Shown: positions 17,531-34,368 of the stretch, piece after piece
Position numbering within the stretch: position 1 is the stretch's first letter
Layout of the letters: each line of letters starts with the position of its first letter
Origin: Planctomycetaceae bacterium
Lineage (GTDB): Bacteria > Planctomycetota > Planctomycetia > Pirellulales > Pirellulaceae
Length of the DNA: 35,975 nucleotides
Assembly (NCBI GenBank): GCA_007121535.1
Contig: SKKK01000290.1
Coordinates: 1 to 35,975, forward strand
Direction of reading: 5' to 3'
Notes under the pieces: model-generated
Seen by the model: only the letters and a program-made list of their open reading frames with translations
Database searches by the model: none
Told to the model about the DNA's origin: nothing
Translations under genes and position numbers: made by a program

Positions 17531-18780
17531 TGCCGCCGAACTTCGTCACTGCAAGCGGTCAGGCTGCGGTACAGATCCAGGGCGGCGGGGAAGGGGGACA
17601 GGGCGCGGTCGAAGATGCCGAGGCTGTAGGCGATGGTCAGGCCGTAGTTGGTGATCGGGACGCCGGCGCTGCGGCAGCGGAGGATGCGGGAAAGCATCTC
17701 GCGCCGGTTCTGGACGCATGCGCCGCAATGGACGACCAAGTCGACGCCGGTCAGATCCGAGGGGAAATCGTGACCTTGATAGTGCTGGAAGTCCAGGTCC
17801 CCGCCGACGTATTGCCGCAACCAGCGGGGGACCTTCACGCGGCCGATGTCGTCACCGATCGGATGGTGCGTACAGGCTTCGCAGACCAGCACGCGGTCGC
17901 CGGGCCGCAGTCGGTCGATGGCCAACGCGCCGCGGACCAGTTCGACCAAGTCTCCCTTGTGCCGAGCAAATAGGATCGAAAACGAAGTCAGCTTGACGTC
18001 TGGCGGCGTGTCTGCGGCGACTTTCAGAAAGGCCTGCGAATCGGTGACCACCAGCGCCGGAGGATGTGTCAGCCGCCCCAACGCCGCCCGCAGTTCACGC
18101 TCTTTTACCACCAGACAACAGGCGTCGCTGTCCAACAGGTCGCGGATGGTCTGGACTTGCGGCAAGATCAAGCGACCTTTTGGTGCTTCCATGTCGATAG
18201 GCACCACCAACACGGCCAGCTCGCCGGGCGGCACCAGATCGCCGGCAATGCTGGGCGGATCTAGCAGACTGGCTGGCGTGGCACGGATCAACGCCTCACG
18301 CAGTTCCAACAGGCCCGCACCAGTGGTCGCTGCCGTTTCCACCAGGGGGACGCCCGCTGTGTGCAGACGCTGGCGTAATGCGGGCGGAGCGACGCCCAGG
18401 TCGCTCTGGTTGCTGACAACGATCACGGGGGTCTTCCGCGAGTTCAGTTCATCCACCAACTGCTCCTCGAAGTCGCTCCAGTCGCCCTGATTGCAAACGA
18501 GTACGGCCAAGTCGGTTCGGTCCAACACGGCGCGCGTCTTGGCCGCCCGCAACTCGCCCAACGCGCCTGTGTCGTCGATGCCGGCCGTATCGATGAACAG
18601 CACCGGGCCCAGCGGCAGCAGTTCCATCGGCTTTTCCACCGGGTCCGTCGTCGTGCCGGCGATGGCCGAGACGATCGACACATCCTGGCGCGTCAACGCG
18701 TTCAACAGCGAACTCTTGCCGACGTTCCGTCGGCCGAACAGGGCGATGTGCAGTCGATTTCCTCGCGGCGTGCGTTGCAT
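17527..18780 (-). CDS. hydF: [FeFe]-hydrogenase H-cluster maturation GTPase HydF
   Basis: HydF is the scaffold on which the diiron subcluster of the H-cluster is assembled before transfer to HydA. The 417-residue product has a GTPase domain with P-loop GRRNVGKSS (16-24), DTAG (64-67) and NQSD (124-127, usual NKxD with Gln instead of Lys), then a dimerisation region, then the cluster-binding domain with Cys303-Thr-His305 and His351-Cys352-x2-Cys355, matching the family pattern CxH...HCxxC. It is the last gene of hydG-aspA-hydF, 18 bases after aspA. Its stop overlaps that of the convergent activator gene by the four bases CTAG, leaving no room for a terminator. Confidence 0.97.
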   Translation of the reverse strand: MQRTPRGNRLHIALFGRRNVGKSSLLNALTRQDVSIVSAIAGTTTDPVEKPMELLPLGPVLFIDTAGIDDTGALGELRAAKTRAVLDRTDLAVLVCNQGDWSDFEEQLVDELNSRKTPVIVVSNQSDLGVAPPALRQRLHTAGVPLVETAATTGAGLLELREALIRATPASLLDPPSIAGDLVPPGELAVLVVPIDMEAPKGRLILPQVQTIRDLLDSDACCLVVKERELRAALGRLTHPPALVVTDSQAFLKVAADTPPDVKLTSFSILFARHKGDLVELVRGALAIDRLRPGDRVLVCEACTHHPIGDDIGRVKVPRWLRQYVGGDLDFQHYQGHDFPSDLTGVDLVVHCGACVQNRREMLSRILRCRSAGVPITNYGLTIAYSLGIFDRALSPFPAALDLYRSLTACSDEVRRH

Positions 18781-18798: not shown

Positions 18799-20217
18799 TC
18801 AGAAAGTGTGAGACACGTGGACGGAGCCGAGCCGCGTGACGGCGTCGGGCGCGACAGCCTGGTCGAATTGCTCGGCGGTCAGCAGCCCCTGTTCCAGGAC
18901 AACCTGACGCACGGTCTTGCCTTCCGCTTCAGCGGTGCGTGCCACAGCTTCGGCCGCCTGATAGCCGATCCGGTCCACCAGCGCCGTCACGGTCGCCGTA
19001 GCAGCATCGACCGCGCGGCGACAGCGTGATTCGTCGGCCGTGATCCCTCGCACACAATGCTGGACCAAAATCTGGCAGGCGTTCCGGGCCAAGTCCAGAC
19101 TGGTCAGCAGGCTGTCGGCGATCAGGGGCAGGAACTGATTGAGTTCCAGATTGCCCAGCGAAGCGGCACTGGTCAAGGCCTGGTCGTGGGCCACGATGGA
19201 CAAGGCAGCTTGGCACACCGCCTCAGGGATCACCGGATTCACCTTGCCGGGCATGATCGACGAACCGGCTTGGCGCGGCGGCAAGGTGATCTCGCCCAGG
19301 CCGGCCACCGGACCGGACGACAACAGCCGCAGGTCGTTGCTGACCTTCAGCAGGCTGCTGGCCAACGCCCGCAACATGCCGCTGACTTCGACGAACACGT
19401 CCGCGTTTTGTGTGGCATCGATCAGATTTTCCGATCGAGCCACACCCAGGCCGGTGAGCTGTTGCAGATGATCGACCACGCGGAAGATGAACTGTCGCGG
19501 CGCGCCCAGCCCCGTGCCGATGGCCGTGCCGCCCAGGTTGACGACGCGCAACCGTTCCTCGCATTTGTAGATCCTCCAGCGGTCGCGGGCAAAGGCTTCG
19601 GCGTAGGCTCCCATGCTGCGGCCCAGTGTCGTGAGCACCGCGTCTTGCAGTTGAGTCCGGCCGACTTTGACCACGTGGGCCAGCTCGCGTTCCTTGTGCT
19701 GAAAGGCATCGACCAGGGCGATCACGTCCCGTTCCAGCAGCCGGAACTGACCGATGGCTGCCACGCGCAGCGCCGTCGGATACGTGTCGTTGGTCGATTG
19801 GTGCAGGTTCACGTCGCGCAGAGGATGCAGCGTGTCGTAATCGCCCAGGGGCCGGCCGAGCTGCTGCAGGGCGCGGTTGGCAAGCACCTCGTTGACATTC
19901 ATGTTGGTCGACGTGCCGGCACCACCCTGCAGGGCATCGACGATCACGTGTTGGTCCAATCGCCCGTCGGCCATATCCTGGCAGGCGGCTTCCAGGGCCG
20001 CGAACTTGTCGCCGTCGGGCCACGCGCCCAGTTCCTGGTTGGTCCGGGCACAGGCCAGCTTGACCCAGCCGTAGGCGTGAACCAAGTGCCGGCTGACCGG
20101 TCGTCCGCTGAGCGGAAAGTTCTCAACAGCTCGCTGTGTGTGAATTCCGTACAACGCATCGGCCGGAACGGGCAACTGTCCCAGCAGATCGGTTTCGATG
20201 CGGTAATTGGTGGACAT
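18799..20217 (-). CDS. aspA: Aspartate ammonia-lyase within the hydrogenase maturation operon
   Basis: 472 residues of the aspartase/fumarase superfamily: GTSTNMNVNEVLANRAL (101-117), HQSTNDTYPTA (139-149) and the signature GSSIMPGKVNP (318-328) containing the catalytic-loop Ser. The reaction is aspartate to fumarate plus ammonia. The ATG at 20215-20217 (MSTNYRIETDLLG) is the start; the frame extends upstream to 20490 but that part lies in the hydG 3' end and has no family similarity. It sits between hydG and hydF, and I recall such a lyase gene recurring in [FeFe]-hydrogenase maturation clusters in other bacteria. A role in providing nitrogen for the bridging dithiomethylamine ligand is an inference from context. 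A fumarase activity cannot be wholly excluded. Confidence 0.9.
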   Translation of the reverse strand: MSTNYRIETDLLGQLPVPADALYGIHTQRAVENFPLSGRPVSRHLVHAYGWVKLACARTNQELGAWPDGDKFAALEAACQDMADGRLDQHVIVDALQGGAGTSTNMNVNEVLANRALQQLGRPLGDYDTLHPLRDVNLHQSTNDTYPTALRVAAIGQFRLLERDVIALVDAFQHKERELAHVVKVGRTQLQDAVLTTLGRSMGAYAEAFARDRWRIYKCEERLRVVNLGGTAIGTGLGAPRQFIFRVVDHLQQLTGLGVARSENLIDATQNADVFVEVSGMLRALASSLLKVSNDLRLLSSGPVAGLGEITLPPRQAGSSIMPGKVNPVIPEAVCQAALSIVAHDQALTSAASLGNLELNQFLPLIADSLLTSLDLARNACQILVQHCVRGITADESRCRRAVDAATATVTALVDRIGYQAAEAVARTAEAEGKTVRQVVLEQGLLTAEQFDQAVAPDAVTRLGSVHVSHTF

Positions 20218-20300: not shown

Positions 20301-21737
20301 TCAATAAAACAAATCTCGGTCTTGCGTGGTGACGATCCGCTGCAGACGACGTTCCAACTCTTGTTTGCGTTGGCCGTCGGGCATCGCGGCCAGGCCGTCT
20401 TGGATTAGCCGTTCGCCCAATCGTCGCGTGGCGGGCGAAGCGTAATCGATCAGGTACTCTTGCAAGGTGGTCAAGGCGTTTGGCGTACACAGCCGCTCGA
20501 TAAAGCCCGGAACGGCGAACTCCATGAACTGTTCACCGGTGCGGCCCAATCGGTAACAAGCCGTACAGAAACTGGGGATGTAACCGTCGGCCAGCAATTG
20601 CGCCACCACCTGGTCCAACGTTCGCACGTCGCCCAGTTCGAACTGCTCGCGCTCGCACACCTGCTGTTGAGCGTCGCCGGCTTCGGTGTATCCGCCCAGC
20701 TCGATACGGCTGCCCGCGTCGATCTGCGACACTCCGAAGCCCAGCAACTCCTGTCGCACCTCGGGCGATTCGCGCGCGGTCAAGATCATGCCCGTATAAG
20801 GCACGCTCAGCCGCAAGATCGCGACCAGCCGCTTGAAATCATCGTCGCCGACCAGCCAGCGGTCGTCCAGATGCACGCCGGACGCCGGACGCAGCCGCGG
20901 GAAACTGATCGTGTGCGGGCCACAGTCGAATTTGGCCATCAAGTGCCGCGAGTGGCTCACCAGCCCGAGCACTTCGAAACGCCAGTCGTACAGTCCGAAC
21001 AGCGCCCCGATCCCGACGTCGTCACAGCCGCTTTCGTAGGCGCGGTCCAACGCATCCAGCCGCCACAAGTAGTCCGATTTCCTCGTGCCCATCGGATGGA
21101 CCTTTGCGTACGTGGCGTGATGATACGTCTCCTGGAACACCTGGTAGGTTCCGATCCCGGCCTCTTTCACGATGCGAAAGCCGTCGTGATCCTGCGGCGC
21201 TGCGTTGATATTCACCCGGCGGATCTCGCCTTGGCCGTCCTTCACCGCGTAGACGGCGTGTACCGTGTCCGCGATGAACTCGGGCGAATACCGAGCGTGT
21301 TCGCCGAACACCAGGATCAGCCGCTTGTGCCCCTTTCGCTCCAAGGCCGTGACCTGGGCTTGGATCTCGGATGAATCGAGCGTGCGGCGGATCGCGGCCT
21401 GGTTCCGCGAGCGGAAACCGCAGTAGGTGCAATCGTTCACGCAGTAGTTGCCGATGTACAGCGGCGCGAACAGCACGATGCGGTTACCGTAGACATCGCG
21501 TTTGAGTTGCCGGGCGGCGGCAAAGATCTCTTCGATCAGTTCCGGCGACGTCGCGTTCAACAGCACGGCCGTCTCCGCCTCGGTCAGCGGCTGCTTGGCC
21601 AAGCTCTTGGCGATCACGTCGCGAACCGCCGCCGCATCGGCCGGGCAGTCCAGCAGGTCTTGCAAGGCGCAATCGTTGATGAAATCGCAGGCACCATCGC
21701 TGAGCCGTGGGCCGGCGGTCGGCAGGGGTATCGTCAT
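20301..21737 (-). CDS. hydG: [FeFe]-hydrogenase maturation radical SAM tyrosine lyase HydG
   Basis: HydG cleaves tyrosine to supply the CO and CN ligands of the H-cluster as an Fe(CO)2(CN)-cysteine synthon. The 478-residue product has the radical SAM motif Cys99-x3-Cys103-x2-Cys106 (YCVNDCTYCGF) and the C-terminal CTAC (Cys391, Cys394) that belongs to the second, five-iron cluster and distinguishes HydG from ThiH. Family segments FQETYHHATYAKVHP and GIGALFGLYDWRFE are intact. The ATG at 21735-21737 fits a sigma-54 transcript starting about 30 bases upstream; a longer frame to 21806 would overlap that promoter. It is the first gene of hydG-aspA-hydF. Confidence 0.97.
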   Translation of the reverse strand: MTIPLPTAGPRLSDGACDFINDCALQDLLDCPADAAAVRDVIAKSLAKQPLTEAETAVLLNATSPELIEEIFAAARQLKRDVYGNRIVLFAPLYIGNYCVNDCTYCGFRSRNQAAIRRTLDSSEIQAQVTALERKGHKRLILVFGEHARYSPEFIADTVHAVYAVKDGQGEIRRVNINAAPQDHDGFRIVKEAGIGTYQVFQETYHHATYAKVHPMGTRKSDYLWRLDALDRAYESGCDDVGIGALFGLYDWRFEVLGLVSHSRHLMAKFDCGPHTISFPRLRPASGVHLDDRWLVGDDDFKRLVAILRLSVPYTGMILTARESPEVRQELLGFGVSQIDAGSRIELGGYTEAGDAQQQVCEREQFELGDVRTLDQVVAQLLADGYIPSFCTACYRLGRTGEQFMEFAVPGFIERLCTPNALTTLQEYLIDYASPATRRLGERLIQDGLAAMPDGQRKQELERRLQRIVTTQDRDLFY

Positions 21738-21778: not shown

Positions 21779-21793
21779 GCAAACGGCGTGCCA
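21779..21793 (-). promoter_or_regulatory. Sigma-54 (-24/-12) promoter of hydG-aspA-hydF
   Basis: On the minus strand the sequence is TGGCACGCCGTTTGC, an exact match to TGGCACG-N4-TTGC with the correct distance between the GG and GC elements. Transcription would start near 21767, about 30 bases before the hydG ATG. The presence of two sigma-54 activators in the same island supports it. Confidence 0.85.
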
Positions 21794-22211: not shown

Positions 22212-22874
22212 TTACCCGCCCACGGCTTCCGCGAACAGGCGGCGCAGCGACAATTCGAATCCGGGCAAGACGGGTTCGCCGCACAGACTGCCGTCCTCAC
22301 CGATCGCGTCGCACTGCTGCTCGCCCGTGTACGAGCGGGCCGTTCGTGTCTGAGGATCGATGTACCAAACCAGCCGGACGCCGGAGGCAAAGTATTCTTG
22401 CAACTTGCGGTCCAATTCTGCGGCGGTATTTCCCGAGGAAAGCACCTCGACGGCCAAGTCCGGAGCTACGGGCAGAATCGGGTAGTCTGCCAGCCGTCGA
22501 TTTCCCAGCCGCTCCCAACTCACGAACGACACGTCCGGAACGCGAACCTGTCGTGGCTGGATCCGCAACAAGCCGTCCGGTCCCAACAGCACGCCCATTC
22601 TGTGCTCTTGCAGGTACATCTTCAAGAAGAAGGACAAGGTGATCGCCACCGCCGATTCGTAGCTCCCCATCGCCTTCTCCACCAGGACGCGATCGATCAA
22701 CTCGCAGATTCTGCCCGTACGCGCTTCGGCCTGTTCGGCATCTTGTTCGGTTGCCGTGCCGGGCGCGGGGCACATGCGGATTCTCTCCGGCGGGATGCCG
22801 CCGAGTTGCTCGAGCAAATCGGCGACAGTCTCGACGCTCGACGAGTGCGAAGATGGTGCGGTCGCAACGGTCAT
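22212..22874 (-). CDS. Uma2-family (DUF820) putative endonuclease
   Basis: The 220-residue product starts at ATG 22872-22874, with TAGGGA nine bases upstream. The sequence has the family's typical order: an N-terminal region with ICELIDRVLVEKAMGSYES, then the PD-(D/E)XK-like core RVPDVSFVSWERL...APDLAVEVLSSGNT and the helix ELDRKLQEYFASGVRLVWYID. Uma2 proteins are predicted PD-(D/E)XK nucleases of unknown function, abundant in planctomycetes and cyanobacteria. It lies between hydE and hydG on the same strand, has a likely promoter of its own and is bounded by repeats, so it looks like an insertion into the hyd region rather than a hydrogenase gene. Confidence 0.85.
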   Translation of the reverse strand: MTVATAPSSHSSSVETVADLLEQLGGIPPERIRMCPAPGTATEQDAEQAEARTGRICELIDRVLVEKAMGSYESAVAITLSFFLKMYLQEHRMGVLLGPDGLLRIQPRQVRVPDVSFVSWERLGNRRLADYPILPVAPDLAVEVLSSGNTAAELDRKLQEYFASGVRLVWYIDPQTRTARSYTGEQQCDAIGEDGSLCGEPVLPGFELSLRRLFAEAVGG

Positions 22875-22919
22875 CAACTGGGTTCCCTACTGCTCGGCTC
22901 CGGCTATCCAAGATTACTG

Positions 22920-22966: not shown

Positions 22967-24031
22967 TCACGTGGTTGTGGGAGTTTGTCGATGAATCGCG
23001 TTGGGCGAATCGCCGCGGCCTTGGCCCACGCGGCGGTCGATGGCGGCGATGCGCACGCCAAGACACGTGTGGCAGGCGTCGCTGGTCTCTCGTACGCACG
23101 CTTTGTCCGGATAGATCTCGTACAAGGCCCGGTATTCGGGCGGCGTCAAATTGGGCATGACCACGTTGGCGCCGCGGGCCAGTCCCAGCTCGCGCCCGCG
23201 GGCTCGGTTGAGCGTAGCCAAAGCCGTCGTGCTGGGGATATTGGCTCGCGGGCACACCAGCCGCGCCAGGGCGATCACCTTGTAGGTCATCAATTCGCTT
23301 CCCGGAACTTGATCGTCGAAAGTGTCTGCCAGACCCGGGGCGCCCAGCGGCGTTGCCGGGTGCGGCAGGAAGGGCCCTACGCCGATCATGTCCAAATCCA
23401 ACTCGCCAAACCATTGGATGTCGCGGGCGAGGTCCTCGTAGGACTGGCCGGGGATGCCGATCATCACGCCGCTGCCGATCTCGTAACCCATTTCCCGCAG
23501 GCGCGGCAGCAGGCCCAAGCGATCCGAAACGCGGCTGGGCGACGAGGGATGAATGCGGTCGTACAACGGGCGGTTCGAGGTCTCGAAGCGCAACAGGTAG
23601 CGGTCCGCGCCTGCGGCACGCCAGTCGAGCAGCTCCTGTTCCGAGCGCTCGCCCAAACTGAGCGTCACGGCCAGCGGCGTTTCGCTCTTGATCCGGCGGA
23701 CCAGTCCGGCGACCCATTCCCGCGTCAATCCCGGGTCTTCCCCGGCTTGCAGGACCACCGTGCCGTAGCCGAAATCCACCGCCTGTCGCACGCAAGCCAT
23801 GATTTCATCTTCGCTCAGCCGATAGCGAGTCAACGCGGCGTTCGAAACGCGCAGCCCGCAATACGCACAGCGGGAACTGCAATAGTTCGAAATCTCGACC
23901 AGCCCCCGCAAATGGACCTCGTCGCCCGCGTATCGCTTGCGCAGCCGGTCCGCCGCTTGCCAGAGCTGGTCAAGACGCGAGGCGTCTTGTTCGCGGAGCC
24001 AGGACAGGATTTCGGTGAAGCTCAGTGGCAT
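22967..24031 (-). CDS. hydE: [FeFe]-hydrogenase maturation radical SAM protein HydE
   Basis: HydE is the radical SAM enzyme that processes the HydG-made iron synthon on the way to the diiron subcluster. The 354-residue product has Cys51-x3-Cys55-x2-Cys58 (YCSSRCAYCGL) and family segments TVVLQAGEDPGL, RFETSNRPLYDRIHP and GIPGQSYEDLA. The C-terminal KACVRETSDACHTC keeps the C-x7-C-x2-C site of the optional second Fe-S cluster known from Thermotoga HydE. It follows the receiver-kinase hybrid gene after only 3 bases, so it is the last gene of the long operon that begins at hydC, apart from hydG and hydF. Confidence 0.97.
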   Translation of the reverse strand: MPLSFTEILSWLREQDASRLDQLWQAADRLRKRYAGDEVHLRGLVEISNYCSSRCAYCGLRVSNAALTRYRLSEDEIMACVRQAVDFGYGTVVLQAGEDPGLTREWVAGLVRRIKSETPLAVTLSLGERSEQELLDWRAAGADRYLLRFETSNRPLYDRIHPSSPSRVSDRLGLLPRLREMGYEIGSGVMIGIPGQSYEDLARDIQWFGELDLDMIGVGPFLPHPATPLGAPGLADTFDDQVPGSELMTYKVIALARLVCPRANIPSTTALATLNRARGRELGLARGANVVMPNLTPPEYRALYEIYPDKACVRETSDACHTCLGVRIAAIDRRVGQGRGDSPNAIHRQTPTTT

Positions 24032-24034
24032 GTT

Positions 24035-25240
24035 TTACGTCGTCGTTGGTACCTGGGAGTTGGCGGGCAGCGTGTTTTCGCCGCTCAAGCAAGGACTCGG
24101 GGTCGCCGGCTCGTCGGACCCTTGGTCGCGCAGTACGACGGTAAACGTGCTGCCCACACCGGCTTGGCTGGTCACCGTCGCGTCACCGTCGTACAAGCAG
24201 GCCAGCTTCTTGACGATGGAAAGCCCCAGGCCGCTTCCGAGGATATTCTGAGTCTTCTCGTTGCGAATCCGCACGAACTCGCCAAACAGCCGGTCGGCCT
24301 CTTCTTGCGTCAGGCCGATGCCAGTATCGACGACTGCGATCGTGACACGGTCGGCCTCGCGCGTCAAACGCACGTCCACTCGTCCTCCTTCGCGGTTGTA
24401 CTTGATCGCGTTGGAGATCAGATTGTTCAGGACCATCTCGATTTCGCCGCGATCGGCGACCATACGCACCCGTTCCGGCGCATCACAGGCGATTTCGATT
24501 CGCTTCGCCGCCGTCTCCGATGCAAAGGTTTCCAAAACGCCGTGTGCCAACGGGACCAGATCGACCGTCGCAAGCTGCCGCTGGCGTTGCCCGGATTCGA
24601 TGTGCGTCACGTCCAGCAGATCGGTCACGAGTTTTCGCATCCCTTCGATGCGATTCAGGCTGCGCTCGATGGCCTCGACGTAGTCAGGCAACCGATCTCC
24701 CAATCGCCCCTCTTGCAGTAGCCGAAGGTAGCCCTCCACCGCGTTCAACGGTGCCTTCAGTTCGTGCCCTAGCACGCGAATGAACTGGAATCTTACCTGG
24801 CGTTTCTCTTCGGCCAGTTTTCGCGCTTGCTTGGCAAGCGCCAGTCGCGCGGCCGCTTTGCGGGTGGTGTTTCTCAACTCGTCGGGCGTAAAAGGCTTGG
24901 CCAGGAAATCGTAGGCTCCCCGCTTTGTGGCCTGGACCGCCGTCTCGATCGAGGCATAAGCCGTGATCATGATCGTCAGCATCTCGGATTGCAGACCGCG
25001 CGTCGCGTTCAAGACTTCCAGTCCGCTCATGCCGGGCATTTTGTGATCCAGGAACAGGATGTCGGGCCGCGAAGCACGGATCTTTTCCAAAGCAGCTTCG
25101 CCACAGTCTGCCTCCTCGACAGCAAACCCGATCGTCTCTTCCACGTCCGGGACCTGCACGGTAAAGTCACGCAGAGTTCGAGCCACGCCCAAACGCATGC
25201 CTAATTCGTCGTCGGTTACCAGTACTCGCAGGATATCCAT
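24035..25240 (-). CDS. Receiver-histidine kinase hybrid (REC-HisKA-HATPase)
   Basis: 401 residues without membrane segments. The N-terminal receiver has Asp10-Asp11, phosphorylation site Asp65 (ILFLDHKMPG) and Lys115, and is followed by a coiled-coil linker, HisKA with VLGHELKAPLNAVEGY (His159), and HATPase with N-box NNLISNAIKYN, VDTGIGL and GSGLGLSIVKK. A receiver in front of a kinase core suggests its activity is set by phosphotransfer from another kinase, here most simply the hydrogenase-like sensor kinase encoded two genes upstream. It is 17 bases downstream of the lone receiver gene and 3 bases upstream of hydE, so it is cotranscribed with the hydrogenase. Confidence 0.92.
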   Translation of the reverse strand: MDILRVLVTDDELGMRLGVARTLRDFTVQVPDVEETIGFAVEEADCGEAALEKIRASRPDILFLDHKMPGMSGLEVLNATRGLQSEMLTIMITAYASIETAVQATKRGAYDFLAKPFTPDELRNTTRKAAARLALAKQARKLAEEKRQVRFQFIRVLGHELKAPLNAVEGYLRLLQEGRLGDRLPDYVEAIERSLNRIEGMRKLVTDLLDVTHIESGQRQRQLATVDLVPLAHGVLETFASETAAKRIEIACDAPERVRMVADRGEIEMVLNNLISNAIKYNREGGRVDVRLTREADRVTIAVVDTGIGLTQEEADRLFGEFVRIRNEKTQNILGSGLGLSIVKKLACLYDGDATVTSQAGVGSTFTVVLRDQGSDEPATPSPCLSGENTLPANSQVPTTT

Positions 25241-25257: not shown

Positions 25258-25695
25258 TCAGGACATCGCGCCTGCCGTCTCGGTCGTTGTCACCTTGCCA
25301 GGCATCAGCCGGTCGATTTCGCTCAGCAGTTGCTCGAATCGAATCGGCTTGGCCAACAGAGCGTCTGCGGCAATCCAGGCGCGGTCGTTGTCGGTGGCTA
25401 GGGCAAAATCCAGTCCCGTCTCGCTGACGATCGACGTGACCAGGATCAATGGAATTTTAGGCGCCACTTTACGGATGTGGTAGCACAGCGTAAAGCCCGT
25501 ATCCGGATTGTCCATCATCACGTCGATCACCGCCAAGTCGGGATGCCGCTCGGCCAATCTCCGCTTGGCATCTGACTCGCCGACGGCCGTCACGACGTCG
25601 AATCCAGCGGCTTCGAGCTGCACCTTCTGCTGCCAGAGGAAGTCACTGTCGTCGTCGACCAGCAATACAAGCGGTTTCGTGGGAGTTGTGGTCAT
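25258..25695 (-). CDS. Single-domain response regulator (receiver only)
   Basis: 145 residues, one receiver domain: acidic cluster Asp14-Asp16, likely phosphorylation site Asp58 (LAVIDVMM), Thr in LVTS and Lys in LLAKP. There is no output domain, so it is likely a phosphate shuttle or sink, or acts by protein contact. The start at 25693-25695 has AAGGAGA six bases upstream. It lies between the hydrogenase-like sensor kinase and the receiver-kinase hybrid, which fits a relay between the two. Confidence 0.92.
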   Translation of the reverse strand: MTTTPTKPLVLLVDDDSDFLWQQKVQLEAAGFDVVTAVGESDAKRRLAERHPDLAVIDVMMDNPDTGFTLCYHIRKVAPKIPLILVTSIVSETGLDFALATDNDRAWIAADALLAKPIRFEQLLSEIDRLMPGKVTTTETAGAMS

Positions 25696-25822: not shown

Positions 25823-27808
25823 TCACTCCCGACGCGGCAGGACCACGGTAAAGGTGGTGCCGGTCGGACCGGCCGCGGAGTCGGCTTGGGACTGGACGCG
25901 AATGTCACCGCAATGCATCTTTACAATTCCATAAATGACAGCCAACCCCAGACCTGTGCCCTTGCCCATCGGTTTGGTGGTAAAAAACGGATCGAAGATC
26001 TTCTTCATGTTCTCTTCCGGGATGCCCGTGCCCGTATCGATGACGCTCAGCACAACTTGTTCCGCAGCCTCGCTGGTCCGGACCGTCAACGTGCCGCCCG
26101 TTTCCATCGCCGCCACGGCGTTGGATATCAAGTTGGTCAACACCTGGACGATCTGGTCGCGATCGACTTCCGCGATCGGATCGGTCAATTGGTGCTCGAC
26201 GCGAACCTCGACATCTTCGGGCAAGCGGATCGCCCGCAGGGCACGATCGACCAGATCGCGTACGTCGGCCGGATAGCGGACGACCTTGTTCTGTCGGGCG
26301 AAGTGCAGCAGACCCGCAACGATCTTTTTGCAGCGGTCCGCCTGTTCGGTGATCATCGTCAGATCGCTGCGCAGCGAGCTGTCATCGGGACAGGCGTCCA
26401 GCAGCAAATGCGAATACATCAGGACCACGCCCAACGGGTTGTTCACTTCATGGGCAATCCCAGCGGCCAACTGTCCCATGCTGGCCAGTTTTTCCGACTG
26501 AATCAGAGCATCCTGTGCCTCGGCCAACTGCCGGTTTGACGCCTCGACTTCCCGCACGGCTCCGTACAGTCGGTCGATCGTGTAGGGTAAGCACATGGTG
26601 TTTTCGGCCAACCCCTTGCAGATCGCCACGGCATGCTCTCGGCAGGTATCGTAGCCACAGGCGCCACAGTTCAATTGATCCTTCGGCGAATCCTTGCCGA
26701 TGCGAGCCATGACCTCCTGCAACTGGTCCGCCTCCGGCAAGGGGGTGCGTTGATCGTCGGCTTCGAAACCGCGGGACAGATCCAGATTCTGGGATCGCCG
26801 CAGGTTCTCCTGCCAGTGCCACTGATCGAGCGATTCCATGCGATTGCAGACGTGGAGCTGCACCAACCGGCGGCGGTTGAACAGCGGCAGCGAGTTGCGA
26901 ATACCGGGGCCGGTGATGCAGCCCTCGCAGCACAGAGCCTCCAGCAGTTTCGCGCCCAGATCGCCCGAGGCGAATTCCTGAATGGCGTCCAGGACGTGAC
27001 TGCGACCCTGGGTCGCCACGACCTCGCCGTTCATCAGATCCTCGTCGATGTTCGACGCCTGCAACAGACCGCGACCGATCGGAAACACGCCGCCCGTGCC
27101 GCCGTACGGCGGGTCAAAGGCGCACGGCTCGACCTGTCCCGGCTCCAGGCCCCGAGCATCGAAAATCTGCCGCAATTCCTCGAAGGTCAGAACCTCGTCG
27201 ACGTCCCCGGCCACCGCACGACTCGCGGCCTCGGCTTTCTTGGCGATGCAAGGTCCGATGAAGACGACGGCCAGGTCGTCGCCGTGCATCTTCCGCGCCA
27301 CGCGGGCCGTGGCCACCATCGGCGACACGATCGGCGCCAGCGAGCCGACGAATTCCGGGTAGTACTTTTCCACATAGCTGATCACGGCGGGGCACGTCGT
27401 GGCGATGAAGCCGCGGCCGTTCGTAGCGCCCAACAAACGCCGGTACTCGCGAGCGACCAAGTCGGCCCCGAAACTTACCTCCAGCACCAACGCGAACCCC
27501 AACCGCCGCAGCATTCCAGCGAGCTGCTCGTGGTTGACATCGGGAAACGCAGCAGGGAAGCTGGGCGCCAGGCAGACCGCCACGCGACGGCCGGACCGCA
27601 GCAGGCTCTCCAGTTCGCCCGTGGCGCTGCGGACTTGCTTGGCGTCCTGCGAACACACGAGCACGCAGTTGCCGCACGCGATGCAGCGCTCGTCCACCAC
27701 CTCGGCTTGGCCCGTGGCGACTCGGATCGCCTTGGCCGGGCATTCGCGGACGCACGTATAGCACATGCGGCAGCGTTCTTTTACCGTGGTGACGTAATTC
27801 GTGGACAT
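25823..27808 (-). CDS. Histidine kinase fused to an [FeFe]-hydrogenase-like sensor domain
   Basis: 661 soluble residues in this order: two [4Fe-4S] ferredoxin motifs (Cys13/16/19/23 and Cys42/45/48/52); an H-cluster domain (about 75-320); a CxxCGxxxC Fe-S domain (Cys381, 384, 389, 406); a coiled coil; HisKA with [21 protein letters not shown] (His453); HATPase with N-box [17 protein letters not shown] and GKGTGLGL. In the H-cluster domain the four cysteines expected to hold the [4Fe-4S]H part are kept (Cys139 in ATTCPA, Cys187 in GPCIAKK, Cys293 and Cys297 in CCEGC), but the catalytic loops differ from those of HydA: TTCPAVI for TSCx[12 protein letters not shown] for GASGGVMEA. This is the group C, kinase-linked sensory type of [FeFe]-hydrogenase, likely sensing H2 or redox state. 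It is 29 bases after hydA. Confidence 0.93.
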
Positions 27809-27837: not shown

Positions 27838-29559
27838 CTACGCCAGCGCATCTCGCGGGACATAATGGGTATGCAGCAACTCGTGGCTCGTGTGACTCAG
27901 CGGCTGGCCGAGGAATTCATCGTACAGCCGTTTCACGGAGGCATTGTTGTGCGAGGTGCGGACCGACTCTTGTCGATCCAACTCGTACAGCCCCTGCATC
28001 CGTCTGCGGACCGCATCCACGTCGGCGCCGAAGGGCTGACCGCCGCCCGCGACGCAGCCGCCGGGGCAAGTCATGACCTCGATGAAGTGCAGATCGCTGC
28101 GGCCGTCGCGGATCTGGTCCAGCAATCGGCAGGCATTTCCCAGACCGCTGACAACGGCGACGTTCAACGTCAGCCCATCGACGTTGACGCTGGCCTGCTT
28201 GACGCCGTCCATTCCACGCACGGCGTCGACGGTAAAGGCTTCCAATTCGCGGCCTGTGACCATCCAATGCGCCGTGCGGATTGCGGCCTCCATCACGCCG
28301 CCGCTGGCGCCGAACAACTTGCCCGCCGTGGTCCGCTCGCCAAACGGCGTGTCCGCGTTCTCCGCCGGGACTTCTGCCAAATCGAGACCGTGCATGTGCA
28401 GCAGTTGGACCAGTTCGCGCGTCGTCAGGACGGCGTCGATATCCGCAACGCCATGCCGCATCATTTCCGGCCGAGCCGCCTCGAACTTCTTCGCCGTACA
28501 GGGCATGATGCTGACGCTGTAGATGTCGTGCGGATCGATCTGCTCGCGATTTGCGAAATAGCTCTTGATCACCGCGCCCATCATTTGTTGGGGACTCTTG
28601 CAGGTCGACAGGTTGCCGATCGATTCCGGATAGGACGTCTCGACAAACTTGATCCAGCCCGGTGAGCAACTGGTCAGCATGGGCAGTCGCCCGCCGTTCT
28701 GCAGCCGGTGGACCAATTCCGAAGCTTCCTCCATGATCGTCAGATCGGCGGTAAAGCTGGTGTCGAAGACGCGATCGAAGCCGAGCCGACGCAAGGCGCC
28801 GGTCATCGCTCCGGCCACGTCCGCGCCCACGGGCAGACCGAACGCCTCGCCGACGGTCACCGAGACGGCCGGGGCGTGCTGGACCACCACCCGTTTTCGC
28901 GGATCGCGCAGCGCCGCCAGCACCTCGGGGATGTGGCTCCGCTCCGCCAGCGCGCCGGTCGGGCAGACCACCACGCACTGGCCACAGTTGATACAGCCCG
29001 ATACGTTCAATCCGTCGTCAAAGGCCGTACCGATCTTGGACCGCGAGCCGCGACCGATAAAGTCGATGCAACCGACGCCTTGGACTTCTTCGCAGACTCG
29101 CACGCACTTGCCGCACAGCACGCACTTGGACGGCTCGCGCACGATCGATGGGCTGGACATGTCCATTATGTGGCGACTCTTCTCGCCCGCGTAACGACGC
29201 TGACGGACGCCCAGTTGTTGAACCAGATCCTGCAACTGGCAGTCCTGGTTGCGGGTGCAATACAGGCAGTCGTCCGGATGGTTGGCCACCAACAGTTCGA
29301 CGATCGTCCGCCGTGCGAGAACGGCGCGTGCGGAATGCGTACGGACTTTGGTGGGCTGCGTGACGGGATAAGCGCAACTGGGAATCAGCCCCCGTTGGCC
29401 TTCGATCTCCACGACGCACATCCGGCAGGCGCCGCTGGGCAACAAGCCTTCCAGGTGGCACAGCGTGGGGACCTGGACACCGGCTCGCCGCAACGTCTGC
29501 AACAACATTTCTCCGGGCTCTGCTTCGAACGGCCGACCGTTGATTTCAATCGTGACCAT
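27838..29559 (-). CDS. hydA: [FeFe]-hydrogenase catalytic subunit, NAD-linked multisubunit type
   Basis: The 573-residue subunit carries the H-cluster. N-terminal [2Fe-2S] domain (Cys34, 45, 48, 62), then the His/Cys cluster segment HPDDCLYCTRNQDC (94-107), two [4Fe-4S] motifs (Cys146-156 and Cys189-199), then the H domain with L1 TSCSPGW (296-302), L2 MPCTAKK (352-358), L3 FGASGGVMEA (416-425) and TCPGGCVAGGGQP (498-509; Cys498, Cys502). The C-terminal small-subunit-like tail (SVKRLYDEFLGQPLSHTSHELLHTHY) is present. The ATG at 29557-29559 has GAGAGGA seven bases upstream; the frame runs on to 29883 only within the hydB 3' end. With hydB and hydC it forms a trimer of the electron-bifurcating or NAD(P)-dependent type. 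Confidence 0.97.
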   Translation of the reverse strand: MVTIEINGRPFEAEPGEMLLQTLRRAGVQVPTLCHLEGLLPSGACRMCVVEIEGQRGLIPSCAYPVTQPTKVRTHSARAVLARRTIVELLVANHPDDCLYCTRNQDCQLQDLVQQLGVRQRRYAGEKSRHIMDMSSPSIVREPSKCVLCGKCVRVCEEVQGVGCIDFIGRGSRSKIGTAFDDGLNVSGCINCGQCVVVCPTGALAERSHIPEVLAALRDPRKRVVVQHAPAVSVTVGEAFGLPVGADVAGAMTGALRRLGFDRVFDTSFTADLTIMEEASELVHRLQNGGRLPMLTSCSPGWIKFVETSYPESIGNLSTCKSPQQMMGAVIKSYFANREQIDPHDIYSVSIMPCTAKKFEAARPEMMRHGVADIDAVLTTRELVQLLHMHGLDLAEVPAENADTPFGERTTAGKLFGASGGVMEAAIRTAHWMVTGRELEAFTVDAVRGMDGVKQASVNVDGLTLNVAVVSGLGNACRLLDQIRDGRSDLHFIEVMTCPGGCVAGGGQPFGADVDAVRRRMQGLYELDRQESVRTSHNNASVKRLYDEFLGQPLSHTSHELLHTHYVPRDALA

Positions 29560-29588
29560 GCGTGTTCCTCTCTCGTTGACGGTTGTCC

Positions 29589-31580
29589 TCAATTTTTCAG
29601 CACCGCGCCCGGCTTGCAGACGTCCAAGCAAGTTCCACAGCCGATGCACTTGTCGGCGACGATGTAATGCAGTTGTTTCGGCGAACCGACGATCGCGTCC
29701 GTCGGGCACTTCTTGGCGCACAACGTACAGCCCTTGCACCTGTCCGGGTCGATCGTAAAGGTCAGCAATTCGGCACACACCCCCGCCGGACAATGGCGTT
29801 CGTAGATATGCGATTCGTACTCGTCGCGGAAGAACCGCAACGTGCTGAGCACCGGGTTCGGAGCGGTCATCCCCAGCCCGCACAGGCTGGCGTCGCGGAT
29901 CGTCTCGGCCAAGTCCTGCAAGTGCAGCACGCTGTGGAACCGCTCCAGAGCATCAATGCCCTTCTCACGCTGCCGGCCCCGCGTGATCCGCTGCAGGATC
30001 TCCAGCATGCGCCGCGTGCCTTCGCGGCAGGGAATGCACTTGCCGCAGCTCTCGCGCTGGATGAAGTCCATGAAGAACATGGCCACGTCGACCATGCAGT
30101 TGTCTTCATCCATCACCACCAGACCGCCGGACCCCATCATGGCGCCCACCGTCTTCAAGGACTCGTAGTCGATATCGATGTCCAGGTGCTGCTCAGGGAT
30201 GCAGCCGCCGGAAGGACCGCCGATCTGTACGGCTTTGTATTGCCGCCCGTCGGGAATGCCACCGCCTACGTTGAACACGATCTGCCGGACCGTCGTACCC
30301 ATCGCGACTTCGACCAAGCCCGTGCGGGCGACCTTTCCGGACAGGGCGAACACTTTCGTGCCTTTGCTGGTGGGGGTGCCCAGGCTGCTAAACCATTCGG
30401 CGCCGCGATCGACCAGCATCGGCACGTTGGCCAGCGTCTCGACGTTGTTGATGATCGTCGGCTTGCCGAACAGCCCTTTCAACGCAGGAAACGGCGGACG
30501 GGGGCGAGGCATCCCGCGGCGGCCTTCGATGCTGTGGATCAGCGCCGTCTCTTCGCCGCACACGAACGCTCCGGCCCCCATCTTGATTGCGATCTGCAGG
30601 TTGAAATCGGTGCCCAAAATGTTCTCGCCCAGCAGCCGATTCGCCTCGGCCTGGGCCAGAGCCACTTGCAAGCGTTTGATCGCCAGCGGATATTCGGCGC
30701 GGATGTAGATATAGGCTTTCGTCGCACCGATCGCATAGGCGGCGATCACCATGCCTTCGACCAACCGGTGCGGGTCGCTTTCGATCACCGCCCGATCCAT
30801 GAAAGCGCCCGGATCTCCCTCGTCGGCGTTGCAGATCAGATACTTGCCATCGCTCTTCGCCATGCAAGCGAACTTCCACTTCGTGCCCGTGGGAAACCCG
30901 CCGCCGCCTCGGCCTCGCAAGCCGCTGGCTTCCACCAGTTCGCAGACCTGGGCCGGCGTGTACTGCCGTACCATCTTGGCCAGCGCCTGGTAGCCGCCGT
31001 GGGCGATGTACTCGTCGATCTGAGCCGGGTCGATCAAGCCGCAGTTGGCCAGCACCCAACGCGTCTGCGGCGCGAAGAACGGATGCTCGTCCAGAAACGG
31101 TACGTCGTCCCACGGCTTCAGCGTGGCATGGCGATGCTGGGCAAGTGCCAGCTTGTCCGGGATCTGGCCGACCAGCACTGCGTCCAACAAGCCGTTGACT
31201 TTGTCCTTGGTAACCTGCTGGAACATGACGCGCGTGCGGCCCGGAATTTGGATATCGACCAGCGGTTCGGCCGAGCACAAACCGATGCAGCCGACTTTGA
31301 TCACGTCGGCTTTGACTTCGTGGAGATCGAGATAGGCACGGATGACGTCCAGCGTCTCCTGAGCGCCGGCCCCCAAGCCGCATGTGCCCGCGCCCACGAA
31401 GATGGCCGGCCGCACCAGGCGGTCGCGCCGCAGTTCGGCAATGCGGTCTTCCCATTGCTGGCGCACCGCTTGGTCCTGCGAGCCGTCGTCGTCCAACAGC
31501 CAGGAGAGAAGTTCGGGATAGGTGGCAAACGCCGCCGCAGTCGCCGGCGCGGTGCGCCTGTCAAGCAGCTTGGTCGTCAT
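29589..31580 (-). CDS. hydB: Hydrogenase NADH-binding flavoprotein subunit (NuoF-like)
   Basis: 663 residues: an N-terminal thioredoxin-like Fe-S domain (Cys67, Cys98, Cys102), a NuoF core with the FMN/NADH-binding glycine loop GRGGGGFPTGTKW (223-235), CNADEGDPGAFMDR (250-263) and GAGAFVCGEETALI, the N3-type [4Fe-4S] site Cys512/515/518 and Cys567, and two C-terminal [4Fe-4S] ferredoxin motifs (Cys615-625 and Cys645-655). This is the fused form typical of HydB in HydABC hydrogenases, which passes electrons between NAD(H), ferredoxin and HydA. Its start lies inside the hydC 3' end (20-base overlap), and hydA follows after 29 bases. Confidence 0.96.
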   Translation of the reverse strand: MTTKLLDRRTAPATAAAFATYPELLSWLLDDDGSQDQAVRQQWEDRIAELRRDRLVRPAIFVGAGTCGLGAGAQETLDVIRAYLDLHEVKADVIKVGCIGLCSAEPLVDIQIPGRTRVMFQQVTKDKVNGLLDAVLVGQIPDKLALAQHRHATLKPWDDVPFLDEHPFFAPQTRWVLANCGLIDPAQIDEYIAHGGYQALAKMVRQYTPAQVCELVEASGLRGRGGGGFPTGTKWKFACMAKSDGKYLICNADEGDPGAFMDRAVIESDPHRLVEGMVIAAYAIGATKAYIYIRAEYPLAIKRLQVALAQAEANRLLGENILGTDFNLQIAIKMGAGAFVCGEETALIHSIEGRRGMPRPRPPFPALKGLFGKPTIINNVETLANVPMLVDRGAEWFSSLGTPTSKGTKVFALSGKVARTGLVEVAMGTTVRQIVFNVGGGIPDGRQYKAVQIGGPSGGCIPEQHLDIDIDYESLKTVGAMMGSGGLVVMDEDNCMVDVAMFFMDFIQRESCGKCIPCREGTRRMLEILQRITRGRQREKGIDALERFHSVLHLQDLAETIRDASLCGLGMTAPNPVLSTLRFFRDEYESHIYERHCPAGVCAELLTFTIDPDRCKGCTLCAKKCPTDAIVGSPKQLHYIVADKCIGCGTCLDVCKPGAVLKN

Positions 31581-32073
31581 GTTTCGCGGCCTTCTTTCGA
31601 TAGGAGTCCAGAATCTTGATCACCGACTGGGGCGTTACGCTGGCATGGAACACGTCGTTGATGCAAATCACCGGGGCCAGTCCGCAAGCGCCGATACAGG
31701 CGACCACCTCCAAACTGAACATTCGGTCGCGGCTCGTCTGGCCTGCATCGATCTTCAGCTCGCGTTTGATCGCCTCGAACACGGCGGCCGAGCCCTTGAC
31801 ATGACAGGCCGTGCCGCGGCAGACCTGCACGTGATAGCGGCCCTGGGGCTGGAAGCGGAATTGGTTGTAAAAGGTAGCCACGCCGTAGATCTTGCTGGTC
31901 GGCAAATCCAGGTGCTGGCCGATCCGCACGATGGCGGGCCGCGACAAATATCCATGATGCTCCTGGACTTCCTGCAGCAAGGGAATCAACGATTCGCGCC
32001 GCGCAAGCGGATATTCGGCCAGGATCGATTCGAGGTCCGGTTCGGGCGTGGTTTCAGGTAGGACGACAATCAC
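31561..32073 (-). CDS. hydC: Hydrogenase [2Fe-2S] subunit (NuoE-like)
   Basis: 170 residues with the thioredoxin-like [2Fe-2S] fold: Cys85-x4-Cys90 (CRGTACHVKG) and Cys126-x3-Cys130 (CIGACGLAP), preceded by the helical NuoE domain (LIPLLQEVQEHHGYL, TSKIYGVATFYNQF). It is the first gene of the hydrogenase operon. The proposed start is GTG at 32071-32073, with GGAG eight bases upstream and about 50 bases after the predicted sigma-54 transcription start. The frame continues upstream to 32199, but that would put the promoter inside the gene, and the extra residues do not look like NuoE. Confidence 0.94.
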   Translation of the reverse strand: MIVVLPETTPEPDLESILAEYPLARRESLIPLLQEVQEHHGYLSRPAIVRIGQHLDLPTSKIYGVATFYNQFRFQPQGRYHVQVCRGTACHVKGSAAVFEAIKRELKIDAGQTSRDRMFSLEVVACIGACGLAPVICINDVFHASVTPQSVIKILDSYRKKAAKHDDQAA

Positions 32074-32135: not shown

Positions 32136-32150
32136 GCAAGCCTTGTGCCA
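32136..32150 (-). promoter_or_regulatory. Sigma-54 (-24/-12) promoter of the hydCBA operon
   Basis: On the minus strand the sequence is TGGCACAAGGCTTGC, preceded by TTT: a TGGCAC-N5-TTGC match with exact GG/GC spacing. Predicted transcription start near 32124, about 50 bases before the hydC GTG. It faces the divergent kinase/sigma-54 activator pair, which is the usual arrangement for an activator and its target. Confidence 0.88.
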
Positions 32151-32232: not shown

Positions 32233-32247
32233 CGGAAACGGTTTCCG
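32233..32247. promoter_or_regulatory. Palindromic operator, candidate activator binding site
   Basis: CGGAAAC-G-GTTTCCG is a perfect 15-base inverted repeat centred about 115 bases upstream of the predicted hydC start, in the range where sigma-54 activators bind, and about 45 bases upstream of the -35 box of the divergent kinase promoter. A looser copy with the same half-sites, GGAAA-N6-TTTCC, lies at 32112-32127 across the predicted start. Confidence 0.55.
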
Positions 32248-32373: not shown

Positions 32374-34347
32374 ATGACCATCCGACTAAAACTGACCATC
32401 TTGTCAATCGCTGGCATCCTGGTTGCCAACGCCCTCGTTTCTTTGGCGGCCCTCTCGTATCTGCAATCCGCGTGGCTGCGCGAGGTCCAAAACCGCGTGC
32501 AACTGGACCTTCGATCGGCACGCGCCCTGTACGAGGGCCGCGCTCAGCACGTGGCAGGCTACTTACAGGCAGCCGCGCTGAACCCCGAGATTCTCGCCGC
32601 TATGAGTGGCACAGGTTACCCTGAAAGAAGGGTGCAGCAGCGACTTCAGCAGGTGCGCCGAATCGGTACGATGGACTTTCTCTCGCTGCTGGACGCTGAC
32701 GGTCGCGTTTTCATGGGCGCCGAACCCGGGGCCGCGATCGGGGACGATCTGTCACACAATGCGGTGATTGCCGCAGCGATCAGCACGCTGCAACCTGCCA
32801 CCGGAACCCTGCGAGTCCCCGAGGCGACGCTCCGACGAATCGGCGACTCACTGGCCGCTCGAGCCCGCATCGATCTGATCCCCACCCGCGAAGCGGAACC
32901 GACGACGGAGACCACCAGTTCCGATGGCTTGGTTCTTGTAGCCGCCGTTCCTTTGCTGGATGCACGCGGCGCGCTCCAAGGGTTGCTGTACGGCGGGGAT
33001 CTGCTGAACGGGCGAAACGATTTGGTGGATTCGATCCGTGACGCCGTGTTCTGCTCGCCGATCGATGATGCCCCATCGCTGGACACGGTGACGATCTTCC
33101 TGGGAGACGTTCGGATCGCAACCAATGTCCGCCAAGCCGACGGGCAACGGGCGATTGGGACAAGGATGAGTCGAAAAGTGGCCGAGGAGGTATTGGAGCG
33201 CGGCGAGGTCTGGACGCGCCCGGCCTTTGTCGTCAACGACTGGTACGTCACGGCCTACGAACCGATTTGGGATCCCGAGCGCCAAGTCGTCGGTTCGCTG
33301 TACGTTGGGTTGTTGCAGGCGCCTTTCCAGCAGCGGCGCAACACGCTGGTGGGCGTGGTGTCGCTGATGGTGCTGTCGGGCACCGTGGCCTGCTTTCTGC
33401 TGATCTACTTCATGAACTACCTGGTGTTGCGACCGGCCAGCAAGGTGATCGAGATGGCTGGCCGTGTGATCCAAGGCGATCTGACGGCGCGGGTCGGAAT
33501 GCGGCCGCCCGGCGAGATCGGCGTACTGTGTCAGTCGGTCGATCAGATGGCGGACGCGTTGGCCGAACGCGAACAGCAATTAAAGGCCGCCACCGGCAAG
33601 CAATTGCACCGCAGCGAAAAGCTGGCCTCGCTCGGTCGCCTGGCGGCCGGTGTCGCCCACGAAATCAACAACCCGCTGACCGGCGTGCTGACGTTCGCCC
33701 ACCTGATGAAGGAAAAGCCCAATATGGACGACCAGGATCTACAGGATCTGGATCTGATCATCCACGAAACCACGCGAGCCGCAGAGATCGTCCGCGGCCT
33801 GCTGGACTTTTCCCGCGAGCGAGCGTCGATCAAGGAACCGCTGAATCTGAACGAAGTGATCGCGCGAACCATTCGCTTGATCCGCAACCAGAAGCTTTTC
33901 GAACGTATCGCGATCGACGAGGATCTGGCCAACGATCTGCCGGACATCGAAGGGGACATGAACCAGTTGCAGCAGGTGCTGCTGAACCTGTCGCTGAACG
34001 CCTGCGAGGCCATGCCGACGGGCGGCACGCTGACGTTACGCACGCGCAGCCAGCAGCGCGGGGTGATGGTGATCCTGGAGGACACCGGCGGCGGCATCGA
34101 CCCGGAGCATCTCGAACGCGTATTCGACCCCTTCTTCACCACCAAGCCCGTCGGCAAAGGCACGGGGTTGGGGTTGAGCGTCAGCTACGGGATCGTCCAG
34201 CAACACGGCGGCACGATCGAGGTTGACAGCGAACTGGGGCGCGGCACCACTTTCACCCTCGTTTTCCCCGCACTGGGTCAAGAGCCTGTCGCGGCGACCG
34301 CAGACTCGGTTCCCCGCGAGCATCCGTTCCTGGCAACGGCCGACTAG
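32374..34347 (+). CDS. Membrane sensor histidine kinase with periplasmic Cache-like domain, right pair
   Basis: 657 residues: transmembrane helix about 8-28, a large periplasmic region (about 30-322) that looks like a double Cache sensor (N-terminal helix VQLDLRSARALYEGRAQHVAGYLQ split over two turns, FLSLLDADGRVFMGAEPG, and the terminal VVGSLYVGL), second transmembrane helix about 324-347, HAMP, HisKA with SEKLASLGRLAAGVAHEINNP (His429) and HATPase with LNLSLNACEAMPTGG, DTGGGID and GKGTGLGLS. Cache domains usually bind small extracellular molecules; the ligand is not predictable. It lies divergent from hydC and 21 bases upstream of its activator partner. Confidence 0.93.
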   Translation: MTIRLKLTILSIAGILVANALVSLAALSYLQSAWLREVQNRVQLDLRSARALYEGRAQHVAGYLQAAALNPEILAAMSGTGYPERRVQQRLQQVRRIGTMDFLSLLDADGRVFMGAEPGAAIGDDLSHNAVIAAAISTLQPATGTLRVPEATLRRIGDSLAARARIDLIPTREAEPTTETTSSDGLVLVAAVPLLDARGALQGLLYGGDLLNGRNDLVDSIRDAVFCSPIDDAPSLDTVTIFLGDVRIATNVRQADGQRAIGTRMSRKVAEEVLERGEVWTRPAFVVNDWYVTAYEPIWDPERQVVGSLYVGLLQAPFQQRRNTLVGVVSLMVLSGTVACFLLIYFMNYLVLRPASKVIEMAGRVIQGDLTARVGMRPPGEIGVLCQSVDQMADALAEREQQLKAATGKQLHRSEKLASLGRLAAGVAHEINNPLTGVLTFAHLMKEKPNMDDQDLQDLDLIIHETTRAAEIVRGLLDFSRERASIKEPLNLNEVIARTIRLIRNQKLFERIAIDEDLANDLPDIEGDMNQLQQVLLNLSLNACEAMPTGGTLTLRTRSQQRGVMVILEDTGGGIDPEHLERVFDPFFTTKPVGKGTGLGLSVSYGIVQQHGGTIEVDSELGRGTTFTLVFPALGQEPVAATADSVPREHPFLATAD

Positions 34348-34368
34348 TGACAACATGTGAGAATCCCT

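Follow-up and report, generated by a model that had tools for sequence, protein, structure and literature searches.

How does a hydrogen sensor pass its signal to a kinase when no PAS domain lies between them? Among the sensory [FeFe]-hydrogenases characterised in the portions of the literature available to us, TmHydS terminates in a PAS domain and TamHydS lacks a fused output. We analysed a 35,975-nucleotide stretch of a Planctomycetaceae genome (contig SKKK01000290.1; hereafter the window), in which positions 25823-27808 encode HydS, a predicted sensory [FeFe]-hydrogenase/histidine kinase of 661 residues. The coding strand is minus, and reading this interval on the plus strand (frame 1) gives two stops; coordinates below refer to the minus strand unless stated otherwise. 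With sensor and kinase on one chain, joined by a heptad-locked linker, H2 input and autophosphorylation output would be measurable on a single protein, and the linker geometry makes HydS well suited to testing how signals are relayed in hydrogen sensors.

The first-pass annotation placed ferredoxin motifs, an H-cluster domain, an additional Fe-S domain and a kinase core on one polypeptide, and the ORF call and Pfam assignments bear this out. HydS begins with two [4Fe-4S] ferredoxin motifs of the Fer4 type (residues 10-56, 27641-27781; Cys13, 16, 19 and 23 and Cys42, 45, 48 and 52), followed by the H-domain PF02906 (Fe_hyd_lg_C; residues 75-301, 26906-27586, E 4e-48), which a structure match also recovers. 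Next come the C-terminal FeS domain PF04060 (residues 378-408, 26585-26677), with the motif Cx2Cx4Cx16C formed by Cys381, 384, 389 and 406, the HisKA domain (residues 444-506, 26291-26479) with the phospho-acceptor His453, and HATPase_c (residues 549-660, 25829-26164). Both kinase domains score above the cut-off, and the phospho-His, N and G boxes of histidine kinases are present.

We compared HydS with 79 relatives, defined as distinct H-domain sequences with a kinase match starting fewer than 130 residues past the H-domain. The window's own copies were dropped as duplicates, and other classes received 5 rows in which the gap was longer and 212 in which no kinase match qualified; the 112 of these 212 that scored at least 130 bits entered the ligand and loop alignments, two of them (L001, which is the window, and L129) being cut copies of the fused type. 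The relatives show the same domain order, and Cx2Cx4Cx16C occurs in HydS and in 79/79 of them. H-domain, FeS, HisKA and HATPase domains were found in all 74 aligned members (73 relatives and the window itself), across which H453, N456, N457, P458, N563, G593, G595, G617 and G619 are invariant. This conservation across several phyla argues against chance, and a chance ORF or an annotation artefact was rejected. A Pfam scan of the whole ORF detected no PAS domain at E 1e-3, and PAS is absent from the 18 families listed for the 74 members, confirming the PAS-free sensor-kinase junction described earlier.

Structure prediction against hydrogenase templates had been proposed as a check on the H-cluster domain. 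The AlphaFold2 monomer of HydS (mean pLDDT 88.5) recovers the [FeFe]-hydrogenase fold: its first 350 residues fit solved [FeFe]-hydrogenases with VIA Z of about 40, and the best 18 VIA rows are all [FeFe]-hydrogenases (Z 38.4-41.5, rmsd 2.4-2.8 over 345-363 residues), including 8zqd_A (Z 41.5) and 4xdc_A (Z 39.6).

A MAFFT alignment to CpI, whose C300, C355, C499 and C503 we take to be the H-cluster ligands, equates these residues with Cys139 (loop L1, 27392-27394), Cys187 (loop L2, 27248-27250), Cys294 and Cys297 of HydS, respectively. All four ligand positions are therefore kept, with the last pair spaced CxGC rather than CxxGC. The first-pass annotation had named Cys139, Cys187, Cys293 and Cys297; three of these stand, while the L3 ligand is Cys294. 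Cys293, which has the canonical CxxxC spacing to Cys297, was rejected as the C499 equivalent because the alignment places C499 at Cys294 and column 293 is Cys in only 26 of the 79 relatives (F 35, A 12, S 5, L 1), whereas column 294 is Cys in 79/79. The one relative with an unshortened L3, L160, reads CCDGGC, in which the canonical C499 is the second Cys, in agreement with the second Cys as ligand. The segment GGTGGVFPI had been labelled loop L3, which proved incorrect, as its Phe242 aligns with CpI F417. The true L3 reads LCCEGC and lacks one residue relative to MACHGGC of CpI, with Cys294-E-G-Cys297 at 26918-26929. This contraction (CxGC) is found in 78/79 directly fused relatives, 5/5 rows with a longer gap and 26/112 other rows.

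Two loci encode second sensor-like proteins beside divergent hydCBA genes, L014 (3319-5196, plus strand) and L015 (copy L124, minus strand). In these proteins C499 is replaced by N or D and K358 by A, no kinase match was found in either, and they are nested within the kinase-fused clade of the H-domain tree. From these substitutions they are probably H-cluster-less pseudo-sensors.

The shortened L3 might disturb the H-cluster, and HydS could then be a degenerate H-domain protein that holds no full H-cluster and acts as an O2- or redox-sensitive Fe-S kinase. The near-universal contraction among the fused relatives is in keeping with such a protein, and the paralogues L014 and L015 indicate that loss does occur within the kinase-fused clade. 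Against it, C355, C499, C503 and K358 (Lys190 in HydS) are kept in 79/79 fused relatives and C300 in 78/79, the remaining one being a gap, and the window itself encodes the maturases. We consider degeneration improbable.

On the group A proton path of CpI, HydS carries T for C299 (Thr138), Y for E279, L for E282 and A for S319; in addition, M353 is replaced by G (Gly185) and M497 by L. Among the 79 relatives, Y replaces E279 in 76, A replaces S319 in 73, G replaces M353 in 79 and L replaces M497 in 77, and the C299 column contains P 24, T 22, A 17, S 12, D 1, N 1 and C 1, the remaining relative having a gap; the replacement of C299 that marks sensory group C is thus seen in the window, and Cys is kept there in only 1/79 relatives. 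Judged from these replacements, the group A proton path is lost in HydS and its relatives. This loss bears on another possible reading, in which HydS is bifunctional: it would be a slow hydrogenase, and its kinase part would chiefly respond to a partner protein, for instance HydA, and not to H2. Its close linkage to hydCBA would suit that role, but the missing proton path speaks against it, and we regard it as very improbable.

In the H-domain tree, 34 sensor rows, including RaHydS, are separated from 7 group A rows with SH-aLRT 100; the tree contains no named group B or D reference and so does not separate C from D, and one of the 34, L055_Ra2nd, is a long branch of uncertain group. Twenty rows with contracted L3 form one group of 21 together with L160 (SH-aLRT 90), and L3 is uncontracted in the remaining 13 sensor rows. 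These sequence criteria give good support to the earlier view of HydS as a sensor and not a fast enzyme: the proton path is replaced, the ligands are kept, HydEFG are co-encoded and the H-domain groups with RaHydS and not with HydA. From the same features we infer that HydS contains an H-cluster and senses H2.

How might the state of the H-cluster reach the kinase? In the AlphaFold2 model a single helix spans residues 407-472, with pLDDT of about 50 at residues 431-450 within it, and the part between Cys406 and His453 (residues 407-452, 26453-26590) is hydrophobic at 407, 414, 421, 428, 435 and 442. Of the residues present in these six columns, 99 to 100 percent are AILMVF. Between the last FeS cysteine (Cys406) and the phospho-His the distance is 47 in 56, 40 in 22 and 33 in 1 of the 79 relatives, so that it keeps to whole heptads in 79/79, the steps being 7 or 14. 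A tree of the sensor part alone requires at least four changes of linker length. The changes are few (4), and 20 of the 22 forty-residue linkers fall within one clade. That all four would be multiples of seven by chance has a probability of about (1/7)^4 = 4e-4, supposing that any step size is possible.

Distances elsewhere in the protein behaved differently in part. The spacing from His453 to the N-box takes nine values (104-112) with 14 changes in 60 sequences, and that from L2 to C503 takes six values with 12 changes in 80 sequences. From C503 to Cys381 the distance is 84 in 72/80 sequences, with 5 non-heptad changes to 75, 81, 82 or 85; the distance from H-domain to FeS domain is thus nearly fixed, and rigid spacing is not peculiar to the helix. 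A Fourier scan of linker hydrophobicity gave 5.07 at a period of 3.3, 4.12 at 3.5 and 0.74 at 3.6, and is therefore not sharp at 3.5.

The continuous helix with its whole-heptad spacing suggests that the coupling is probably mechanical. A redox relay would work otherwise: the H-domain or the ferredoxin clusters would report the ferredoxin/NADH state or electrons from H2, and a redox change of the C-terminal [4Fe-4S] cluster would switch the kinase. The invariant C-terminal cluster motif among the relatives, the position of that cluster at the start of the kinase helix in the AlphaFold2 model and the adjoining bifurcating-type hydrogenase, which connects NADH, ferredoxin and H2, are all compatible with a relay. 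The whole-heptad spacing favours a mechanical link instead, and the C-terminal cluster of TamHydS is not reduced by H2 but remains oxidised, according to the accessible part of PMC13104023. The TamHydS result argues against the relay and fits mechanical coupling without proving it, and TamHydS belongs to group D, so that the result may not transfer. On balance a redox relay seems unlikely, and mechanical coupling is the reading that we carry forward.

Which proteins would receive the signal? The minus-strand gene order is hydC-hydB-hydA-hydS-response regulator-REC-kinase-hydE, followed by a Uma2-like gene, hydG, an aspartate ammonia-lyase gene and hydF. Upstream of hydS lie hydA, encoding a group A6-type subunit (27838-29559 with the start set by homology, ORF 27838-29883; NF040763, 815 bits, cut-off 765), and, by family search, the NuoF-like hydB (29589-31580) and the NuoE-like hydC (31561-32073; GTG start inferred). 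Downstream are a single-domain response regulator of 145 residues (25258-25695) and a REC-HisKA-HATPase kinase of 401 residues (24035-25240), both from ORF calls and Pfam, and then the maturase genes hydE (22967-24031, TIGR03956), hydG (20301-21737, ORF to 21806, start inferred; TIGR03955) and hydF (17527-18780, TIGR03918). The aspartate ammonia-lyase gene (18799-20217, ORF to 20490, start inferred) was assigned by family search, and a Uma2-family putative endonuclease gene (22212-22877) lies between hydE and hydG.

Divergent from this block, on the plus strand (32374-35754), are genes for an sCache-HAMP histidine kinase (32374-34347) and an NtrC-type sigma-54 activator (34357-35754). This pair is a possible output of the HydS circuit, although the activator is paired with its own sCache kinase. 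At the hydF end, 14524-17530 (plus strand) encodes a second HAMP histidine kinase and an NtrC-type activator, the latter (16154-17530) labelled by sequence inspection, so that a kinase-NtrC pair borders the hyd block on either side. A Cys-rich repetitive protein of 356 residues with repeated VCVP/VCKP-like stretches is encoded at 2991-4061 (plus strand).

The genome (9.3 Mb, 706 contigs) contains three H-domain matches: HydA and HydS in the window, and, on a different contig (L002, G000:C183:29713-30621), a further group A-like HydA that is 47% identical to the window HydA. Loop L1 of the window HydA reads TSCSPGW, with Ser at CpI C300, like A. woodii HydA1 (7q4v). Ser occupies that position in 47/110 such motifs from the fetched loci; in the sensors C300 is retained, and C299 is lost in almost all of them.

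The circuit recurs well beyond this genome. We searched with a profile of the sensor part and verified the kinase fusion on fetched loci. Kinase-fused members were present in 72/1507 genomes across six phylum-level searches, mostly in the arrangement hydCBA-hydS-response regulator-REC-kinase: in 20/392 genomes of the window's phylum and, for the phyla represented by the genomes named, in 20/345 (a Bacteroidales genome), 9/198 (an Elusimicrobia genome; one cut at a contig end), 5/191 (a Bdellovibrionales genome), 16/235 (a deltaproteobacterial genome) and 2/146 (a Gastranaerophilales genome). The phylum of an Eisenbergiella genome gave sensor matches in 150/249 genomes, and no direct kinase fusion in the 30 loci fetched. 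It supplied the 5 rows in which a longer gap precedes the kinase (L235 having PAS_4), and these 5 are a lower bound for PAS-kinase rows, as L238, which falls under the kinase threshold, also has PAS and then a kinase by Pfam. In 18 sensors of this phylum (L218-L230, L233, L234, L242, L245 and L246) the H-domain-FeS module is joined to a sigma-54 AAA+ domain (phmmer E at most 5.5e-38); L218 reads Fer4-H-domain-FeS-Sigma54_activat-HTH_8 by Pfam, Fis HTH included, and its L3 is contracted.

Neighbouring genes were counted where the contig allowed. Among the 41 loci that extend 3.5 kb or further downstream, an adjacent response regulator was found in 36, a REC-kinase-like gene in 40 and both in 36, and any maturase gene was seen in only 23. 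hydA lies directly upstream on the same strand in 38/43 loci with at least 3 kb upstream. The five loci without the pair are L248, L250, L251, L261 and L262; in L262 a response regulator match lies inside a longer frame, and in L261 (linker 33, row L077) an NtrC-type gene stands in this place instead. We identified REC-kinase-like genes by their BLAST matches to the one in the window, and some of these matches cover its kinase part only. In the 36 of 46 such frames that were measured, the lysine-to-His spacing is 44 (22 frames), 51 (1) or 166 to 207 (13). The difference between 44 and 51 is a whole-heptad step, and the longest class is consistent with an inserted domain, two of which look like PAS inserts by eye.

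Promoter-like sites provide a candidate output. A pattern scan identified sigma-54-type -24/-12 sites 62 nt before the inferred hydC start (TGGCACAAGGCTTGC, 32136-32150) and 41 nt before the inferred hydG start (TGGCACGCCGTTTGC, 21779-21793), and rpoN was found in the genome. The strict pattern TGGCACN5TTGC occurs four times in the window versus 0.22 expected (first-order Markov resampling) and 52 times in the genome versus 22 for the reversed control; the remaining two window sites, 2590 (minus) and 32412 (plus), are not ahead of hyd genes. With one mismatch allowed, the 5 window sites are at chance (mean 2.11; at least 5 in 8/100 shuffles). Given the strict counts, two such well-placed copies are unlikely to have arisen by chance. 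Among other loci, fixed-spacing sites precede hydC in 11/35 (the window not among them), versus a shuffled mean of 0.06 and a maximum of 1, and precede other gene starts in 3/314. The fixed-spacing pattern was chosen after a weighted-score scan had been seen, and 8 of the 11 loci belong to the Bacteroidota phylum or Chlorobiaceae, so the 11 are not independent. The fixed-spacing scan found no site before hydC in 24/35 loci and none before hydG in any of the 23 relative loci. With the looser weighted score the contrast was small: at its higher threshold it gave hydC 4/42, hydG 1/23 and 0 to 2 per gene at other starts. A perfect palindrome at 32233-32247 was rejected as an activator site, as its other two matches (at most 3 mismatches) lie far from hydG and their count is at chance.

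Taken together, we propose that HydS is probably an H2-controlled sensor kinase whose Fe-S domain is mechanically coupled to the kinase and which regulates the adjoining bifurcating hydrogenase. HydS would belong to the sensory (group C) [FeFe]-hydrogenase line and act as a histidine kinase of the cytosol that responds to H2. With Cys139, Cys187, Cys294 and Cys297 as ligands, its H-cluster would bind H2 and react with it slowly, as the kept ligand positions and the co-encoded HydEFG suggest. The altered state would displace or re-orient the C-terminal [4Fe-4S] domain, and this movement would enter the continuous helix that runs from the last cysteine to the phospho-His. With no PAS domain between, a dimeric coiled coil would probably rotate or supercoil and thus shift autophosphorylation. 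The kinase probably phosphorylates the lone response regulator and/or the neighbouring REC-kinase, whose gene order is conserved. The output would be expression of the bifurcating hydCBA genes and the maturases, here probably via sigma-54 in view of the sites and rpoN, with HydS as the presumed input.

A broader generalisation is tentative, and we think it somewhat less probable than not. HydS and its relatives may represent a class of gas sensors that do without PAS: the Fe-S domain would replace it as the mechanical coupler, with its cluster as a rigid anchor of a phase-locked coiled coil, and H-cluster state would be conveyed by helix rotation. The L3 contraction would then be an adaptation from catalysis to signalling, and the module a transferable H2-control circuit across several phyla, with sigma-54 promoters on hydCBA in some lineages.

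The architecture is not brand-new. In the available portion of PMC11406978 (2024), group C3 sensors carry a kinase domain where others have PAS and lie beside bifurcating hydrogenases; the hosts of one such type, BfuT sub-type V, include Hydrogenedentota, Caldithrix abyssi and Bacteroidota. Both sub-type V, as described there, and HydS have an H-domain with a kinase where sub-type IV has PAS, and the kinase fusion and the position beside bifurcating (bfu)ABC genes hold for the window and its relatives. Linker phasing, L3 contraction, response regulator/REC-kinase neighbours and sigma-54 sites are features of HydS that this portion does not mention for BfuT. We likewise found no report of the heptad lock, the contracted L3, the conserved response regulator/REC-kinase circuit or the sigma-54-type sites ahead of hydC and hydG in the open literature available in part, the L3 terms having been sought within PMC10055695 and PMC8163306.

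RaHydS of Ruminococcus albus 7 (group C) belongs to the same sensor clade (tblastn 34.6% identity over 96% of the 423-residue sensor part). Unlike HydS, it has an uncontracted L3 (ACNGSC), L1 reading SSCCHSV and a separate SpoIIE phosphatase gene following. The other systems were compared with HydS through the parts of their descriptions available to us. The cluster motif Cx2Cx4Cx16C is common to groups C and D (PMC8163306). TmHydS (group C, M2f) shares with HydS the replaced C299 and M353 and the C-terminal cluster motif (PMC8163306, PMC10055695); it differs in M497, which is Ser (Leu in HydS), and in its PAS domain, and the PAS after the cluster motif that defines M2f is absent from HydS. 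TamHydS (group D, M2e) resembles HydS in Cx2Cx4Cx16C, the absence of PAS, an adjoining trimeric group A hydrogenase and Leu at M497, whereas its kinase-like ATPase is a separate flanking gene and M353 is Ser (Gly in HydS) (PMC8163306). The H-domain/FeS sigma-54 activators of Clostridiales, already listed in PMC6615313, use the same sensor module with a sigma-54 activator, not a kinase, as output. Finally, LvrB-type Rec-controlled kinases resemble the neighbour at 24035-25240 rather than HydS, in their REC-DHp-CA order and heptad preference before DHp; when LvrB is activated, a coiled coil arises from a helix whose length follows a heptad preference (PMC13269768).
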